Positions 8,505 to 25,652 of a stretch of DNA of 64,000 nt are shown here, one piece after another. Source of the stretch: Agelas oroides (lineage: Eukaryota > Porifera > Demospongiae > Agelasida > Agelasidae). The translations under genes were made by a program, and so were the position numbers. How positions within the stretch are numbered: position 1 is the first letter of the stretch; each line of letters opens with the position of its first letter. The notes under the pieces were generated by a model that worked only from the letters and a program-made list of their open reading frames with translations, ran no database searches and was not told the DNA's origin. The stretch covers positions 2,769,313-2,833,312 of the forward strand of contig OX422186.1 of the NCBI GenBank assembly GCA_949130485.1, written 5' to 3'.

Positions 8505-9485
8505 TTTATTTAGTGTAGCTATATAAGTAAGCAACTGAATGCAACATCTTACCTACGTGGTGTCCATGAGTAGGGCTCCCAACAGAAAAAATCAAAGGTG
8601 CACCAGCAAATCTGCTGTGCTAGAACTTCGTCCGATGATCGATGGGTTGAACCTGCGCGCTTCTTCACGCGACACTTCTCTCCATTCTACAACAGAATCG
8701 CTGATAATTGGAGGTTAGGTAGAGTAAGGATGGCTGCAGCTGAAAACCAAGTTTGGTGGACAGTGCTGCCTCCCTCGCTTTATAGGACTTCGTCGTCCGT
8801 GGATCGGTAGTTTCGTCCGATGGTCGCGACCATCGGACACCGCCCTTTATTGGGGCATAGCGTCCACATTCACTGATCTATAAAGCTCAAATTTGGGGTG
8901 CACGTAGGAGTTGCATCAACCTACCTACTGGATCAGAAACAAGGGCCGTTGTTACTCCCATTCGTGCTATGCAGCCGTCCGATAATGTGGGGTGTCCGAT
9001 AATTGATTGGTTACTCTAAACATCCGAGATACGTAAAATCCGGACAAGTAAATTTAGCAAGCACCAATGTGATTAAGCTTATTTTCCATTGGTAGAGTAT
9101 AAAAATAGGTGGACCATTTGCGTGGATATCATTTAAATGTATGTTCATATCCCAATATAAAATCATAATGGCCATATTTTGGCACAATATAACCTTCGGA
9201 AGAACGGTCATAGAAACTATTGTAACTGTAGTTTACAAACAAGGTCACTTGGTTGTTGGATTTCAGCATACTTGAGTCAAGTTCATTCAATCTTCGATAT
9301 GTCCTCGGGTCCTCTACCATGAGCCTTTCCCACTACCGCTGGAAGAGACCGTGCCAGTCGTGCTTACTGGTCAACGCACGCTTTCCCGTGTGCACTAGTC
9401 TCACTCCCAGACCAATGACCATAGTCTTTGGCCAGGGAATGATCATGAGACAGTGTGTGCGCATGGCGTACGTACAAGATTACTA
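8505..9485 (+). repeat. Dispersed repeat S, copy 3, interrupted
   Basis: The left part (TTAGTGTAGCTATATAAGTA, then GGTGTCCATGAG) and the right part (CCTTTCCCAC, then ACCGTGCCAGTC and TAGTCTCACTCCCAGACC) are contiguous in the copy at 5140-5910. Here they are separated by the insertion 8571-9316. Confidence 0.6.
8571..9316. mobile_element. 746-bp insertion in repeat S
   Basis: The boundaries follow from the uninterrupted copy at 5140-5910. A 7-bp direct repeat CCATGAG flanks the insert (8564-8570 and 9317-9323). The ends, TAGGGCTCCC and (reverse) TAGAGGACCC, are weakly similar inverted repeats. No protein is recognised. The class is uncertain. Confidence 0.55.
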
Positions 9486-10200: not shown

Positions 10201-10209
10201 AAATTGAAA

Positions 10210-11152
10210 GGCCGTCTACAATCACTGGACTGGACTGGTGGACTGACATTAAAAATCCTTTTTATGCTTTCTAATGAGACTCACTCGCCTGTAGGGTTGC
10301 ATGATGCATAATATTACCCCCAAAACAGCTCTCTTCTTGGACAGACCTTTATGCCAAAGTAGTAAATTTTTGATGGCAATAACTACTGCATAACTTGGGC
10401 TTCATTTCAAAAATTGTCAGGGTAGGGGAGGAGCAAAAGTAAACCAGCAATTCCTTTTTTTACACATGTCTACACTGTGTTTGCTGACCTCCAGTGGGAG
10501 GTAGGTGTGTTTCTTTTCCTGTCCGACCTGCAGGCAGGGCAGGTGGGGGAAGCGCAGCTCTAGCTTGTGGTTCTCGCTGCAATCATGTGTGTCCCCAGAC
10601 TCTGGAACCTGTGAGGAACGAACGAGTAGAGGAGGAGCAAAAGTAAACTAACGGTTAAAGATTTTAGGAAGCAACATGCTATGTTGTTGGTCCTCACAGG
10701 ACAACTGACATTTGGTAGTCTAGATGATGCTTGTACAAAGGAACAAGTATTACAACGAGCATGCGATCAGATTGCTCATTGTATATATACACTTAAGTGT
10801 TACAATGTACAGTATGGTGTAATGACAACTGAAACATTTACCAAATTACCAAACCTCATCTGAAGTCCTAGGAACTGAAGTCAGGTTGCAATTGTCTACA
10901 CTACATCACTACATCACTACGTCGAGAAAGCCATTACACACTGGGTACAAAGACCATCATGAATACTGTAGGCCTAGTGAGTTATTTGCTCTGGGACCAT
11001 GTATGTAGCTAGAAACAAAGCTGCAGGGCTTCCACACAACTCCACAGGTGAGTGAGTGTCATTGGAAAGCATAAAAACGATTTTTAGTGTCAGTCCACCA
11101 GTCCAGTCCACCAGTCCAGTCCACTAGTCCAGTCCAGCGATTGTAGACGGCC
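10210..11152. mobile_element. 943-bp inverted-repeat element carrying an Argonaute exon copy
   Basis: About 105 bp at each end are inverted copies, starting GGCCGTCTACAATC and continuing through repeats of GGACT to GCATAAAAACG-like sequence. A perfect 9-bp direct repeat AAATTGAAA flanks the element (10201-10209 and 11153-11161). Inside, at 10484-10616, is a copy of one exon of the Argonaute locus found at 17386-17533. That insert is itself bordered by an 18-bp perfect direct repeat (10427-10444 and 10631-10648). The rest, including an open frame at 10681-10863, is unrecognised. The ends differ from the TAGYCTCG family, but the 9-bp duplication length is the same. Confidence 0.8.
10484..10616 (-). 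pseudogene. Argonaute PAZ exon fragment
   Basis: The minus strand is open over the fragment and contains ESGDTHDCS, then [18 protein letters not shown], then [10 protein letters not shown], nearly identical to the exon at 17386-17533. Relative to that exon, six residues (VVLYFK) are deleted without breaking the frame and the start is shortened. Similarity extends a few bases past the exon into both splice sites (CTGAC at the donor side and CCTGTGA at the acceptor side). That favours copying from genomic DNA, or a relic of a second Argonaute gene, over copying from spliced mRNA. No neighbouring Argonaute exons are seen. Confidence 0.85.
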
Positions 11153-11249
11153 AAATTGAAAGTAGTAAAGTTATGTCCATAGCTATTCCAACTGTGCAGA
11201 TGGATAATTAGCAACCAAGTAGGCTTCACATTGTCTACTGTAAACAACA

Positions 11250-13682: not shown

Positions 13683-15019
13683 TTGAAGTTTGCTTGTGGC
13701 CAGAATCCCATCCCAAACTGGGAGCAATTACTAGACAGAGATATGATCATTGCATACATTGATAAATGCAAACGATTCAAATTAGAAGTGGATGGACAAA
13801 TATATAAACTAGATGCAATAGACGCCGGCCTTACATTCATACGGCGCAAATATTCAAAGACGATCCAGAAAGTGGTACCTTTCAGCGGGCCATGAGGATG
13901 TCAGACACGATCAAAGGCTGGAAATGCATCTTACGGAAGGTCAAGACGAAACGCCGGATGAAGCGGATGGAAGAGTTAAGTTCCTCCACACTCACTCTGG
14001 ATGACGTTGACGATGTCATCCAGAGTGAGGAATTATGGAGGGACTTTGTTGCTGTGTGTAACAAACTGGGGGACAACCTGCCAGTTTCCAAATGGGAAAT
14101 GGATGCCTGCACAGTCATGGTTGCTGCACTGCTAACTTTCAGAAGTTGGCAAAGACCTGGAGCTGTGGCAAATGCCACACTGGTTGAATACCGGAAGAGG
14201 ACAGAGATCCAGAAAAAGGGGGAGACCTTGACAATTATCAAAGTGGCAGAACACAAAACGGGGCTCTTTGGATTGGCAAAGCTGATAATCCCACCAGATG
14301 ACCTTTCAAAAGTTCATGCGTACGTCACAACAATCTGCCCCATTCAAGACCCTCAGGGATGCTGCCCGTATCTCCTGTGCCTGGCAGGAGGTAAACAGCT
14401 GACCAACTTCAACACTAGGTTCAAAACACTTGCCAAGAACTACGGCCTAAAGCCTTTGACTGCCACGGAAGTCCGCAAAAGAGCCTCAACAGAGGCTGCC
14501 CGTAACCTCTCCTCCCCGGAGGCAGCTCTGGTTACACGCCAACTCTTTCACAGCACAGAAACAGACGCACGGTTTTATCAGGCTCTCTCTGGTCCTTCTC
14601 ATGCCTCTGAGGCATTTTTAAACCTCAAAAAGATGAGGCAGAAGAGAAAAGACAGCCCTCCTGCCCCTGCTCCAGTTTCTTCCAACTGTCCCAGCCATCC
14701 TCAGCTTTCTCCTGATCAGGTAGAGGTTACTACCAGCCATCCCAATGTCTCTCCTGACTTAGATGTGACTCCCTCCAGGCAGGTTGACGTGACTCCTTCC
14801 ACCAACCTATCTCCTCTAAACAACCCAACTACAAAGAAACGTCGTCCTCTTACCCCGGAGGAGGAAGAGATGATAAAGATTTATTTTGAAGATTACCTCA
14901 CCCACAAGAACACACCTAGCTTATCTCATGCAGCTCCAGCCTTTTGTAAGCACAGTGTCAACACATTCGGCATCATAGAATTCATCAACCACCTATTGTC
15001 ATGCAGGCCTATCATATGA
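13683..15019 (+). pseudogene. Tyrosine-recombinase-like (Crypton/DIRS-type) protein, frameshifted
   Basis: Two overlapping frames encode one protein of about 445 residues: 13683-13895 supplies an N-terminal SAM-like region (FACGQNPIPNWEQLLDRD), and 13892-15019, readable from about 13850, supplies the catalytic-like part. Landmarks of the phage-integrase fold are the first arginine in FRSWQRPGAV, a lysine in AEHKTGLFG, an arginine box in TATEVRKRAS with the usual histidine not obvious, then RQLFHSTETDARFYQAL with the final His and candidate nucleophile Tyr. A Ser/Pro-rich tail follows to the stop at 15017-15019. The family is common as domesticated or mobile genes in aquatic invertebrates and fish. 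A single frame change between about 13840 and 13890 is needed. No flanking long repeats that would define a whole element were found, so it could be a mobile-element relic or a host gene with a sequencing indel. Confidence 0.6.
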
Positions 15020-16905: not shown

Positions 16906-18160
16906 CAATCCTTCTCTCTGTCGGGGGCTGTTCTGGAGGTAGCTCTGATCATCTTAGAGGTCTGCATCTCAGACAGCTTCTTGATGCAACGCTGCCCAGG
17001 TACCAGGTTGCACACCTGCGGCAGAGGCACAGAAGAGGAGTGACAGAAAACATGCAGTTGGGAAGTTATAGTCCCTAGCTCTCTCCCTTTCCACCTTCTA
17101 ATCGTCACGTGATAGGAGCTAGAGAGCCTGAAAACAAGGCTAAAAAGCTTTTGTACCTGTCACCAGCAACTTCATGATGATCCAACACACAAACCCACAG
17201 TGGAAGCTAGAGATCCTGGAAACAAGGCCAGGAAGCTTCTAACCTACACGTATTAATTGGGTCACCAGCAACTTGATTGATGGGATATGGGAACAACCAA
17301 TCGCAACACTGAGTCAAAGGAGCATACTCAAAGCAGGGGGAGCCTAGGGGAGGGTGCACTTACTACAACCCTGATCCACACTGACCTCCAGTGGGAGGTA
17401 GGTGTGTTTTTTCTCCTGTCCGACCTGCAGGCAGGGCAGGTGAGGGAAGCGCAGCTCCAGCTTGTGCTTCTCTTTGAAGTACAGCACAACACTGCAATCA
17501 TATGTGTCTCCAGACTCCATGGTCAAGGGGAACCTGTGAAGGTGAGGGAGTGGGAGGGAGAGCAACACCATATGTGCTTACTAAAGCATGGACATACATT
17601 GCATGTAGATAGCCGACACCAGGAGTTCATTATACTTACCCATACACTTGTATACACATACACGCTATCATACGTATTGTACTTGGGATAGTAATGTTGA
17701 GCATCATCTTCCACTGAGATGGCCGAATGCTCTGGTGGAACCCAAACCACACCTCCCGTCCATTGCCCAGGAGGTATGGCTCCCCATCCGGAGGGGCAAA
17801 GAACGACCGACCAACAGGAGTGTATCTGGGAGAGAGGTGCGTATGTGGCACAATGCATGTGTGTTATGCCATACAAATGTGTGTACGCAGACACATGCAC
17901 ACACATACACACAGGAAAGTATAAACAAGTACTGATTGTCCTCCCTTTTCAATGAGGTCCAGATTTTATGGTTGGGAGTACAACTACAATACAGAGTGAG
18001 GGTAGCATGTAGGGCCACACCCACCTCATGGAGGGAAGGTGTCTCATGACCACATCAAGAGTTTGGATGGACTCGAAGGGCATGCCCAGTTGCTCTCCCC
18101 TCAGGACCTGCTCCAACAGCTCCAGGTTCACCTGGGCCACATGCTTGATGCCAACCTGTT

Positions 18161-18475
18161 GGGACAGGAAGGTTGGGGGGAAAAGGGACGGTGAAAGGGA
18201 AGGAAAAGAGGGAAGGGAAGGAAAGGAGGTAAGAGAGGGGAGGGATGGGGCAGTGGGAGGGGAAGGGAGGGGAAGGGAGGGAGAGGAAGAGAGGGAGGGA
18301 GGGAGGAGGAGAGAGGGGATGGAGAAGGAAGGGAGGGATGGAGGAAGAAGTGAAGAGGGGGGAGGGGAGGGAGGGAGGAAAGGTGAGAGAGGGGAAAGGG
18401 AGGAGGAGGGCCGGGATGGAGAGGGGAGGTAGGGAGAGAGGAGCAATGGAGGGAGGGAGGAGAGAAGATGAAAGG
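18161..18475 (+). repeat. About 300-bp purine tract in an Argonaute intron
   Basis: The plus strand is almost only G and A, mainly GGGAGG, GGGAAGG and GAGAGG units. On the transcribed (minus) strand it is an extended pyrimidine tract that ends a few bases before the acceptor of the exon 18025-18155. It generates long Glu/Arg/Gly or Pro/Ser/Leu open frames that are artefacts. It could form triplex or G-quadruplex structures; this is inference. Confidence 0.8.
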
Positions 18476-18835
18476 TACATGTAAGAAATGGACTAACAAC
18501 AAAGGTGGCAGGATAGGATGAACAGTAAAGAAAAGTTTGACTATTGACCAATGTAGAAGAAGGGTACTCACCGTGAAAGTCCTCTCCTTGCCATCACCAC
18601 CAGGCAAAGTGACATTTAGTTCAACCTGAGGGGTAGACACAAGAAACACAAAGCACTCATCCAGTCCCCACCAACTGTCAGGGAACCTCCAAACGTCCAC
18701 ATACACTGGGAATGACATTTAGACTGATGGTACCCACAGTATGTGTGTAAAAGATCTCCAGTCATGCTCCCAATCCCAATGGTATTATGTATGACGAGAG
18801 ATTGTACTGTATGTACGTCATGCATATGTTTAGAA

Positions 18836-18976
18836 CTCTTGCCTCATGTTGGCATAAAGAGAATTTGGATGTTTTGAGCCAAAAATAGAGGAAAGTGAAA
18901 ACACCGGCAGTCGCCAGGAATCGAACCCTTGTTGCTTGTGCAGCTAGTGCTCTGCCACTGAGCTACAACAACTGGA
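18836..18976 (-). repeat. tRNA-derived SINE-like copy in an Argonaute intron
   Basis: Minus strand: box A GTAGCTCAGTGGCAGAGCAC, box B GGGTTCGATTCC, followed by a tail (CTGCCGG, TTTTCACTTTCCTCTATTT, AAATTCTCTTTAT) that matches the tail of the insertion at 15281-15467. No flanking duplication was recognised. Located between the first and second Argonaute exons found. Confidence 0.65.
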
Positions 18977-20210
18977 CAATCACCAGCCCTCACAATCCGT
19001 TCTATCTACTGCACAGGTGGGACTGAAATCCCTCAGTCACACACCCTGCAGCCACTCAGTATGTGCCATCAGAACTCAGTTGGCAGTCGACCGGAAAGTT
19101 CTCTCCACCAGGAGAGAACCCATGCTGAGTGGTTTTCTCAATCTAAATATTTTCGCCTGTTGCTATGTGACATACCTTGTGTTGTAAAACACATGATCAT
19201 TAGCCTTAGCTCGGTTGCTTTACTCACAGCCACCAACCCCTTGCCACTGGCTAGCATTTACATGTATATACGTGTATGTAGCACTACAGACGTGTGCTAG
19301 CGATACTATTGTGCTGGTCAGATACCCCAAAATACATGTACAACACACTCGTGTACACATGCACACATGTACACATGCAGGGCTTCACTTAGAAGGGGGG
19401 CAAACAGTGGCATTCACTTCCCCTTACAAGTCATGAGTGGCCTTACCACGTACTACTAGTAAATGTGGTAACCAGTTCCATTCATAGACAATCAAAATTT
19501 GCTTGAAAACTAATCTCAGAGGGTCTAAAATTTCCTGGGCAAGCCCCTAGCCCCCCCACCCCCCCGTATAGTTTGTGTATAAACCACAACAACACAGTTT
19601 TCCTACCCTTGTTCCCAGGCCTCTCAGAGCAGTACCACGAGCTCTTGCCAATACAAAATGTCACAGTGCAAGTTGTGTGAGGTGTGTGAATAAGACGGTG
19701 ATGCCTCCTCAAACTTTTCAACTATCAACTTTCGCCCTCTCTTGACAATTTTTCCAAATGAATTCGTGCACATGTACATGTACACACATGTACATGTACA
19801 GCTTACCTATCACGCCCAATGGGAAGTGGTCTTCTGGAGTAAAGGTTCTTTCTGCGTCAAAGACCAGCTTCTGATGAGCAAAGTACTGTGCTTGTGACAT
19901 CACCAGGGCCTCCACAATCTCCCTGTTCACTCTCCGGGGACACTTGTCTGGCACTATGGAAATATCATAATGGTAGAGGGATATTCACTTGGAAGTAGTT
20001 AGCTCAAAGGAGAATGGGACGTCTGATACGGCCAAATGAGTGTCTGAGGGGAGGGTGGAAGTTGGGTGGTGGTGGTGGTTCATGAGGTGAGTTGACATGC
20101 CTACATAATGTGTTGCCTGGCTGGTAAAGCTCAGTACACAGCCCGTCTAGAGGGCAACACACTAGAACGTGTAAAGTAGGTTCTATCATCTCTGATAGGC
20201 ATAACTGTAC

Positions 20211-23626: not shown

Positions 23627-25652
23627 ATGGCTGCTAAACGTAAGCAGTGGAGTTATGAGAGCATGAAAGCTGCTGTTGATCATGTGCAAAGTCAAGGAGC
23701 GTCACTAAGAGAGTCCTCAAGATTGTATAACGTTCCTTTGGAGACACTTAGAAGAAGAGTTAATGGAACTGTAGCAATTGATTGTCGACCTGGGCCAAAT
23801 ACAGTGTTAACCGAAGAAGAAGAGACAAAGCTTGCTGACTACCTCCTTCAAATGAGTGAAATGGGGTACGGATTGACCCGAGAAGGCGTGATGGGTTTGG
23901 CATATTCGATTGTCGAGAAAAGCAAACATCCTCATCCATTTCAGAACGGAAGTGCTGAAGGGCCTGGTTCGAAGGGTTCATGAAGAGAAGGCCAAACCTA
24001 ACCATTAGGTCCCCTCAGTCATTGTCCTATTGCCGAGCTATCTCTGCTAATAAAGAAACCATTACCGACTTCTTTGGAAAGCTAGGTTCTCTTTACGGGA
24101 AGCTTAACCTTGTAACAAAACCGATGCAAATATTCAGTTGTGACGAGACGGGAGTGACGGTTGTTTTCAAGCCGAATAAAGTCATTGCCGAATTGGGAAA
24201 GAGAAATGTGTATGCCCTTTCTGCTGCTGAGAGGGGGAAAACACACACCATATTGTCCTGTGTATCAGCAACTGGATTTATTGTTCCCCCAATGATGATC
24301 TACCCCCGCAAAACCTGTGTCCCAGACAAGTTAAAGGAAGGTGCATTCCCAAACACCCTGTTCAAAAGCAGTGAGAGTGGCTGGAGTAATTCTGATTTGT
24401 TTGTGGACTGGTTTGCATTTTTTCTGAAAAGCATTCCTCCAACTCGTCCTGTTTTGCTAGTGCAAGATGGTCATACCTCTCATGTTTCGATCGAATTGAT
24501 TGAGATGGCTCGTGAAAATGGAGTGTGCCTGCTATGTTTGCCAGCTCACACATCGCACATTCTTCAACCTTTAGACGTCGGAGTTTTTAAATCCTTCAAA
24601 TCAAGTTTCAACAAAGCCTGCGGCAATTATATGAAGCAGAACCCTGGAAGGGTCATCACTACCGATATTCTGGCCTCAATGGTGGGACAAGCTTTTCCGA
24701 ATGCTTTCACTCCTGTTAACGTTTTGAGTGGGTTTAAGAAGACAGGAATTTACCCCTTCAATCCAAGCACTGTTGACGATAGGCAACTGGCACCATCGAA
24801 TGCAGTCTCGAAAAAGAGTACTTTGCCACCACAAGCTGTTTCAGAAGATGACCCAGTCACATCCACTGAGCCGCCAATGCTTTTTTCACCAGAGAAGGAA
24901 AAGCTGTTTGCAACGAGGTTCGAAGAAGACTATGACATCCAAGATCCCGAGTATACTGCATGGGTCAAAATTAATCACCCTGAATGCTGCTTAAGCGCTG
25001 CAAGTAACTCAAGTATGTCAGCTTCTTCAGATGTGAATCATAAATCACCTACTTCTAAGACGGATGCAACTACCCCACCCAAGTCTGGAGCCATGGTGTC
25101 TGGCACTGAAGCAACTACCAGTTCTGAACCACTCAAATCTACGGCATCTGAAAGTGACTTGAGTGACATTCTTGCCCTACCTAAGCTGAAAGAAAAGTCT
25201 GGACGAAAAAGAAAGCCTGGTATCAATCAGAAAACTGTTTGTCTTACAGATGATGCTGTGTTTGATAGATTTAAAGCTGAAGACCAAGAAAAGGATAAAG
25301 AACTGGGAAAACGTGAAAGAAAAAGAGTTTGTGAGGAGAAAAAAGCCGAGAAGGAGAGATTAAAAAAAGGAAAAAGAACAAAAAAAAGAAACAGAAAGCT
25401 AAAGCGAAGAAGGCAAAACAACCAGTTGAAGATCTAGAAACCGTGCTTGAAGGACTCACTCTCGATGATGGCACAGCTGGAGATGATGCAACTGAAGATG
25501 AAGCAATTTGCCCCAAATGTGGCACTTCAGACACAGAAAACGAGTTATGGGTCTGCTGTGACAAGTGTTACCAGTGGTATGATTTCAAATGCACCAAGTT
25601 GAGAAGTAAGAAACGGCTCCCTGATACTTACATTTGTGATTTATGTAAATAG
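23627..25652 (+). CDS. Pogo/Tigger-family transposase with C-terminal PHD-like finger (frameshifted)
   Basis: Acts as DDE-type transposase on the element ends. Frame 1 (23627 to about 23960) holds the psq-type helix-turn-helix (MAAKRKQWSYESMKAAVDHV, LRESSRLYNVPLETLRRRV). Frame 2 (to 25437) holds the DDE_1 core with the aspartates in FSCDETGV, VLLVQDGHTSH and HILQPLDVGVF (residues about 55, 163 and 199 counted from the ATG at 23980). A long Ser/Thr-rich then Lys-rich linker follows. A third frame, entered near the A-rich run 25361-25390, ends in a PHD-like finger (CPKCGTSDTENELWVCCDKC, then WYDFKC, YICDLC). The frame changes lie near 23955 (between PFQNGSA and AWFEGFMKRR) and in the A-run. The PHD histidine ligand is replaced by aspartate (WYDFKC in place of WYHxxC). 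DDD residues are intact, so the copy may be only recently inactivated or may contain sequencing indels. Confidence 0.9.

Follow-up and report, generated by a model that had tools for sequence, protein, structure and literature searches.

Tan et al. (2021) described 370 Pack-TIRs in 100 animal genomes (PMC8277862). Single-copy Pack-TIRs are argued there to be mostly products of transposition-independent gap filling, and the gap-filling model predicts a bias in cis, microhomology, post-insertion timing, and internal breakpoints (PMC8277862). The same paper describes FB4, which has a repetitive TIR and captured the gene Ssk (PMC8277862). Mutator-like elements (MULEs) are defined by a target-site duplication (TSD) of 8 to 11 bp together with long TIRs, and Rehavkus elements have a 9-bp TSD and TIRs of 26 to 400 bp, according to PMC6446971. 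A word search of PMC8277862, over the text available, returned neither “sponge” nor “gene conversion.” In literature searches on gene capture by animal Pack-MULEs and on Argonaute (AGO) together with Pack-MULEs or MITEs, no title or abstract opening dealt with an AGO fragment of this kind, which is not proof of absence.

Here, we analyzed a stretch of 64,000 nucleotides from Agelas oroides (the window; C4:2769313-2833312), in which a TIR element contains a copy of an AGO PAZ exon, and we searched the whole assembly (259 Mb in 141 contigs) for related sequences. Like the single-copy animal Pack-TIRs, this is a TIR element with a duplicated non-TE fragment and a same-chromosome filler; the filler most likely came after the element, the breakpoint is mid-element, and little or none of the element was lost (PMC8277862). 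Both TIR ends surround more than 100 bp of non-TE sequence (a 181-bp insert). The filler-free element at the orthologous site that a Pack-TIR calls for is represented here by two paralogous loci, L031 and L051, in the same genome and not in an outgroup. A parental copy should have at least 90% identity at a length ratio of 80 to 120% and should be free of TEs in its flanking 100 bp. Tan et al. dropped parents with TEs in that flank (PMC8277862), whereas the donor proposed here, locus B, adjoins the right half of a copy of this transposon. The locus also differs in that 23 nt of the element are duplicated around the filler and in that the filler has deletions relative to the gene. With the caveat that it would fail the TE-free-parent filter, the case acts like a single-copy Pack-TIR in the broad sense.

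Plant Pack-MULEs share with this locus the Mutator-like hallmarks (a 9-bp TSD and long TIRs) and the presence of part of an exon together with its intron edges, but we saw no sign here of transposition with the cargo. Foldback/Rehavkus-type elements share the 9-bp TSD and the tandem repeats in the inverted ends. Ssk-FB4, in contrast, is multicopy and transcribed (PMC8277862).

Anatomy of the element and its insert

The element is 943 bp long (10210 to 11152), has inverted ends, and is flanked by a perfect 9-bp direct repeat, AAATTGAAA, at 10201 to 10209 and 11153 to 11161. The inverted arms are 91% identical between 10226 to 10299 and 11037 to 11110 and 94% identical between 10210 to 10245 and 11117 to 11152, with 13-bp tandem repeats inside these ends. 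An earlier note on this DNA, made from the letters alone, had described an element of this length with inverted ends and a perfect 9-bp duplication, and the arms and the AAATTGAAA repeats bear that description out. Absent from the earlier note was a 23-nt direct repeat with one mismatch, at 10422 to 10444 and 10626 to 10648, on either side of the AGO insert. The longest stop-to-stop frame in the element is 77 aa. The features, by position in the window, are as follows.

10201 to 10209, no strand: left target-site duplication AAATTGAAA; the same 9-mer flanks L031 (C4:2.38 Mb) and L051 (C4:2.54 Mb)
10210 to 11152, no strand: non-autonomous TIR transposon, MITE-like, with ends GGCCGTCTACAATC; most other paired copies are 738 to 773 bp
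10210 to 10299, plus strand: left inverted end, containing part of a 13-bp tandem repeat (repeat analysis)
10422 to 10444, plus strand: 23-nt repeat copy 1, GTAGGGGAGGAGCAAAAGTAAAC, the end of the resident transposon's left half; single in other members where found
10445 to 10625, minus strand: insert of AGO intron remnant, PAZ exon copy, and short junction sequence
10445 to 10488, minus strand: what is probably left of the AGO intron that follows the PAZ exon, donor edge included; collinear with AGO introns via locus B, the short spacer alone being weakly significant
10489 to 10608, minus strand: AGO PAZ exon copy, 120 nt, with an 18-nt and a 10-nt deletion (PAZ and AGO matches)
10626 to 10648, plus strand: 23-nt repeat copy 2 with the GTAGAGG variant as in locus B, the start of the right half as it would have been copied from the proposed donor; the variant is also in L047
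11037 to 11152, minus strand: right inverted end, three repeat units at 13-bp spacing (repeat analysis)
11153 to 11161, no strand: right target-site duplication AAATTGAAA

The insert (181 bp, 10445 to 10625) sits in the middle of the element. Read on the minus strand, it holds a 120-nt copy of an AGO PAZ exon (10489 to 10608), flanked on each side by a few bases of the intron edge. The exon copy is identical to the AGO exon of the window at 113 of 120 aligned bases. An ORF at 10417 to 10647 on the minus strand matched Pfam PAZ at an E value of 1.5e-6 (28.6 bits, just below the cut-off of 28.8) and matched AGO2 chains of the PDB with E values down to 1.5e-13. Judged from these alignments, the AGO similarity of the exon copy is far beyond chance. 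The central claim of the earlier note, a copy of an Argonaute PAZ exon inside the element, is confirmed by the 113/120 identity and by the PAZ and AGO2 matches. Its view that the exon carries both splice-site edges and was copied from genomic DNA agrees with the intron edges present on both sides.

The state of the reading frame is another matter, as the note had the frame kept across one six-codon deletion. The exon is 148 nt long in all seven AGO copies of the genome and 120 nt in the transposon, with 18 nt and 10 nt missing. The two deletions sum to 28 nt, and the frame is therefore lost relative to the splice acceptor. Read in the phase that the acceptor dictates, the copy has 15 codons (FQSLGTHMIAARTTS) and then a stop; only between the 10-nt deletion and the donor is the AGO frame retained.

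A search with the insert returned nine places in the genome, all on C4, namely, the window copy, locus B, and the seven AGO exons. The exon copy is 93 to 97% identical to the seven exons over 120 aligned bases, with 28 nt missing, and only the exon and its edges align well. Closest among them is the exon of the C4:2.20-Mb AGO, with 4 of 120 bases different, compared to 7 of 120 for the window AGO (17386). This modest difference, taken from the alignments, does not favor the neighboring AGO as the source. The exon at 17386 to 17533, from which the insert had been said to be copied, is thus a related AGO exon but not the nearest relative.

The earlier note had also allowed for the exon copy being part of a second split Argonaute gene with its neighboring exons nearby. 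In a tblastn search whose queries were the ORFs of 30 aa or longer in two 10-kb stretches of the AGO at C4:2.19-2.21 Mb (the 1.5 kb between the two was left out), we found no other AGO exons around 10210 to 11152. Nearby tblastn matches (e.g., 9323 to 9480) were short and repeat-like, and a second split AGO gene at 10 to 11 kb was rejected.

The transposon family and the duplicates of this insertion

Relatives of the element comprised at least 183 matching pieces in the genome (with the best 40 of 619 candidates scored). The exact 14-nt end has 155 genome copies, compared to 1 for a reversed control. From 41 loci, we obtained 34 left/right end pairs, some of them spurious pairs in nested loci; the 9-bp flanks matched perfectly in 22 of the 34 and with one mismatch in 2 more. 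Target 9-mers vary between family sites, the exceptions being that the window shares its 9-mer with L051 and L069 shares its own with L070. L031 has AAATTGAAA on both sides as well, and an extra base in its left end kept it out of the automatic pairing. Because perfect 9-bp flanks are this frequent and the targets differ between sites, the family is a true TIR transposon with fixed ends and a 9-bp target duplication. Ends lacking any fixed boundary, against which the earlier note had wanted the element checked, are not what these pairs show.

The 9-bp TSD and long TIRs of the family fit the MULE definition of an 8- to 11-bp TSD and long TIRs. MULE domains were found at no fewer than 119 genome places (at least; best 150 of 194 candidates scored), and none was seen by eye within 10 kb of the family ends (100 of the 155 exact ends compared). 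On anatomy, we tentatively call the superfamily Mutator/Foldback-like; in the above comparison, no autonomous partner was found. Systematic gene capture by the family was considered and rejected. In the longer copies L050, L051, L060, and L064, the extra DNA resembles nested inverted-repeat insertions by eye and not gene pieces; L054 was measured for length only.

A search with the left flank of the element revealed long similarity at C4:2.54 Mb (95 to 96%) and C4:2.38 Mb (85%). The other left-flank matches listed resemble one repeat in the flank (best 40 of 1,362 candidates scored). In both places, L051 (C4:2.54 Mb) and L031 (C4:2.38 Mb), the transposon sits between two copies of AAATTGAAA, as in the window, with similar flanks but without the AGO insert.

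We classified 43 family loci, including the window, by the 23-nt motif and by BLAST searches with the exon and with the sequence on either side of the site. The exon was present in two, the window and locus B. Among the other 41, 34 were contiguous across the site without the insert, and 7 were not readable on both sides (L049, L055, L057, L058, L062, L068, and L071). The raw contiguity tally was 36, as the second 23-nt repeat lets the window and B pass the gap test; the exon result separates both. The 23-nt motif has a single occurrence in the other family loci where it was found, and L053 additionally has an unrelated look-alike. The genome-wide search proposed in the earlier note, for further copies with the same ends and the AGO insert, thus recovered the family, while the insert turned up only in B among the 42 other loci.

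Among the three duplicates of this insertion, the window alone carries the AGO piece, and that piece is near-identical to locus B. Because the duplicates sharing AAATTGAAA lack the AGO piece and 34 family loci are contiguous across the site without it, it most likely arrived after the element had landed. Independent loss of the insert in L031 and L051 via the 23-nt repeats is possible but would take more events.

Locus B

The only other copy of the insert lies in L053 (C4:3371000-3380999), about 0.6 Mb from the window, at C4:3375.7-3376.5 kb and in reversed orientation. Locus B consists, in order, of a flank not found beside the sister copies, about 185 bp that can be aligned with AGO intron, the exon copy, a short junction, and the right half only of the transposon with its right flank. 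The left half and left end of the transposon are lacking. The exon copy in B has the same two deletions and the same short junction as the window, and over 10445 to 10654, 207 of 210 bases are identical between the two (length ratio of 1). The window insert ends inside the AGO intron of B.

Intron and exon of B together aligned with the 2.20-Mb AGO at 75% over 245 columns, and a 35-nt intron block reached 91% in another AGO. When collinearity with AGO introns was scored for the whole piece, six of the seven AGO genes gave scores of 78 to 97, compared to 31 to 41 for the best of 300 shuffles. The seventh, L023, which is the AGO nearest to B, was left out of this test, and its intron aligned poorly there. 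The last 48 to 60 nt next to the exon alone showed weak AGO-intron similarity, with 0 to 222 of 300 shuffles as good depending on the gene and the piece. At the point where AGO intron and transposon are fused, there is a shared G-rich stretch, for which 9 to 34 of 1,000 shuffles were as good in the four AGO genes tested. These comparisons indicate that in B an AGO relic is fused to half a transposon.

The right flank of B, with the duplication ATAATGTGT, is found again at C5:0.50 Mb and C4:4.01 Mb, each time beside a complete element without AGO sequence. It is also present at C112, where the contig end cuts it just inside the element, and at L071 (C5:1.02 Mb), where no element was detected beside it and which is possibly an empty site. 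ATAATGTGT occurs on the left of B (in L053) as well, about 240 bp from the exon copy, though the left flank is not homologous to that of the sister copies; this occurrence may be chance or a relic.

The right halves of the two AGO-bearing loci were compared with those of other family members. In the right half, B and L069/L070 have in common a deletion of about 130 bp, absent in the window, L031, and L051. Over 155 columns of the distal right half, B is 1 to 2 changes from L070/L069, and the window is 3 to 4 changes from L031/L051 and 5 changes plus a gap from B, a small margin. By this comparison, the right halves of the window and B are of different lineages, and the short near-identical tract that they share has the pattern expected from short ectopic copying.

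Proposed origin of the insert

We believe that the AGO piece was probably acquired through post-insertion repair, that is, one-sided gap filling from a B-like donor and not capture during transposition, with a product that is most likely inert. All inferences were drawn from one genome assembly. According to this model, an ordinary non-autonomous TIR element would have landed once, and its locus would later have been duplicated along C4. The window copy would have been broken in the middle, near the point between GTAAAC and TAACGG, and later patched. Since B includes more of the AGO intron and the 23-nt duplication lies in the window copy, locus B (or a lost sister), about 0.6 Mb away, is the likely template for repair of the right end. 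The resident right end may have invaded the homologous right half at B, and synthesis would have started in the common transposon sequence, crossed the exon, and entered the AGO intron. Joining of the new end to the left half, perhaps with 2-bp microhomology, would leave the 23-nt transposon duplication around the insert. A 2-bp microhomology at the left junction is visible by eye, and it proves nothing.

If this is correct, the locus is a clean example of a gene fragment entering a DNA transposon without transposition, with duplicates that keep the “before” state and a second locus as the likely template. An exon inside a TIR element alone is not evidence of a gene-carrying transposon.

Two candidate marks of the repair were dropped. 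The GTAGAGG variant is not private to the window and B, since L047 has it, and the 4-nt loss to the right of the insert, considered as a repair scar, is shared by the AGO-free locus L027.

The direction of copying, from B to the window, is our inference, with window to B or a common third, lost locus as alternatives. In the reverse order, the window would be the original AGO/transposon fusion, and B would have gained its junction by ectopic recombination. The 207/210 identity is symmetric and in keeping with this order. However, B holds more contiguous AGO intron than the window copy, and the duplicated 23 nt, which a recipient would be expected to have, are in the window copy. We therefore regard the reverse order as unlikely.

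True capture would mean that a family member gained the AGO exon and then transposed with its cargo to the window site, as a Pack-MULE-like, multicopy element. The complete ends and perfect TSD around the AGO-bearing element speak for it, as does the existence of a second locus with the same insert. Yet the same insertion is found without AGO at two duplicates that share the TSD, and to rescue capture, the insert would have to have been lost in both L031 and L051. The second locus is a chimeric junction without the left half and left end, and its right flank also lies beside complete AGO-free copies on C4 and C5. We found no complete AGO-bearing elements at different sites with different TSDs in the genome; B, the sole other place with the insert, is half an element. 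Capture is accordingly quite improbable. The earlier statement that the exon was captured and is carried by the transposon is not supported, as duplicates with the same TSD lack the exon and no copy shows movement with it.

Marginally less probable again is a LINE-type or otherwise retroposed AGO fragment, for which the 23-nt repeat would be its own TSD within the element. Duplications of 23 nt are within the known size range for LINE-mediated insertion. The direct repeat, with its one mismatch, does bracket the insert, and seven A's stand in a run on the exon-sense strand. Against this, the exon is bordered on either side by intron bases, which makes an mRNA source unlikely; the A run is 10 bases off the repeat; and the same right junction occurs at B without the left repeat. 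Gap filling from a B-like donor remains our preferred explanation.

AGO genes on C4 and the silencing question

Seven AGO PAZ exons are present within 1.2 Mb of C4 (2.20 to 3.39 Mb), and the six others are 95 to 97% like that of the window. The part of this AGO region in the window spans 16908 to 20100, with a long purine-rich low-complexity stretch (GGGA/GGAA) at 18160 to 18470, within the AGO gene region. Two further features belong here.

17386 to 17533, minus strand: PAZ exon of the window AGO paralog, related to the exon copy, not its nearest relative
16908 to 17057, minus strand: last AGO-like stretch in the window toward the 3' side of the gene; no MID/PIWI exon beyond

ORFs of the window AGO matched ArgoL1 and PAZ above the Pfam cut-offs and ArgoN just below (29.6 versus 30.9 bits). 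The AGO exon scored 81 to 84 bits with the best AGO2 chains, which are human, versus 32 bits with a chain named argonaute 10, a plant protein; this difference points to an animal. With the ORFs used, no MID/PIWI exon was found 3' of the window AGO within the window. At an E value of 0.001, there were no PIWI-domain matches on C4 between 2.197 and 3.04 Mb. Only the AGO at 2.19 to 2.21 Mb reaches the PIWI end; the matches near 3.04 and 3.38 Mb are only partial. Beyond those at 2.20, 3.04, and 3.38 Mb, C4 has no others among the PIWI matches listed. Because C4 has no PIWI match between 2.197 and 3.04 Mb, the window AGO does not, from its sequence, look like an intact target gene. Outside C4, a PIWI-domain match at C6:7059079-7059981 lies in a single open frame of 1,029 aa and looks like an intronless PIWI gene; the other matches are shorter and exon-like.

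That the element is a functional silencer yielding AGO-directed small RNA is very hard to credit, as the AGO piece lies outside the predicted terminal stem and the window copy and the window AGO share one orientation, although the whole-element transcript is predicted to fold strongly (z of -11) and the exon copy in B lies in the opposite orientation to an AGO exon about 10 kb from it. In the predicted fold, 123 of the 181 bases of the insert are paired, 66 of them within the insert, 57 with the element interior, and none with the terminal repeats. The model gives no sign of an AGO hairpin. Given its orientation, the inverted exon in B is a possible candidate source of antisense RNA. At the speculative extreme, the AGO cluster could be seeded with transposon-held exon scraps, with B and the window copy giving sense and antisense PAZ RNA that tunes the AGO paralogs. 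We give this idea hardly any credence; if true, the RNAi machinery would itself come to be regulated by repair accidents in a transposon. The presence of AGO sequence is probably incidental, the element happening to sit among duplicated AGO copies.

Two other regions with long ORFs were seen in the window. A 403-aa ORF at 13808 to 15019 had no Pfam match at an E value of 0.001 and is tyrosine recombinase-like by eye. The region from 23627 to 25652 contains a DDE_1 transposase ORF of 492 aa (23959 to 25437), next to an ORF that is PHD finger-like by eye.
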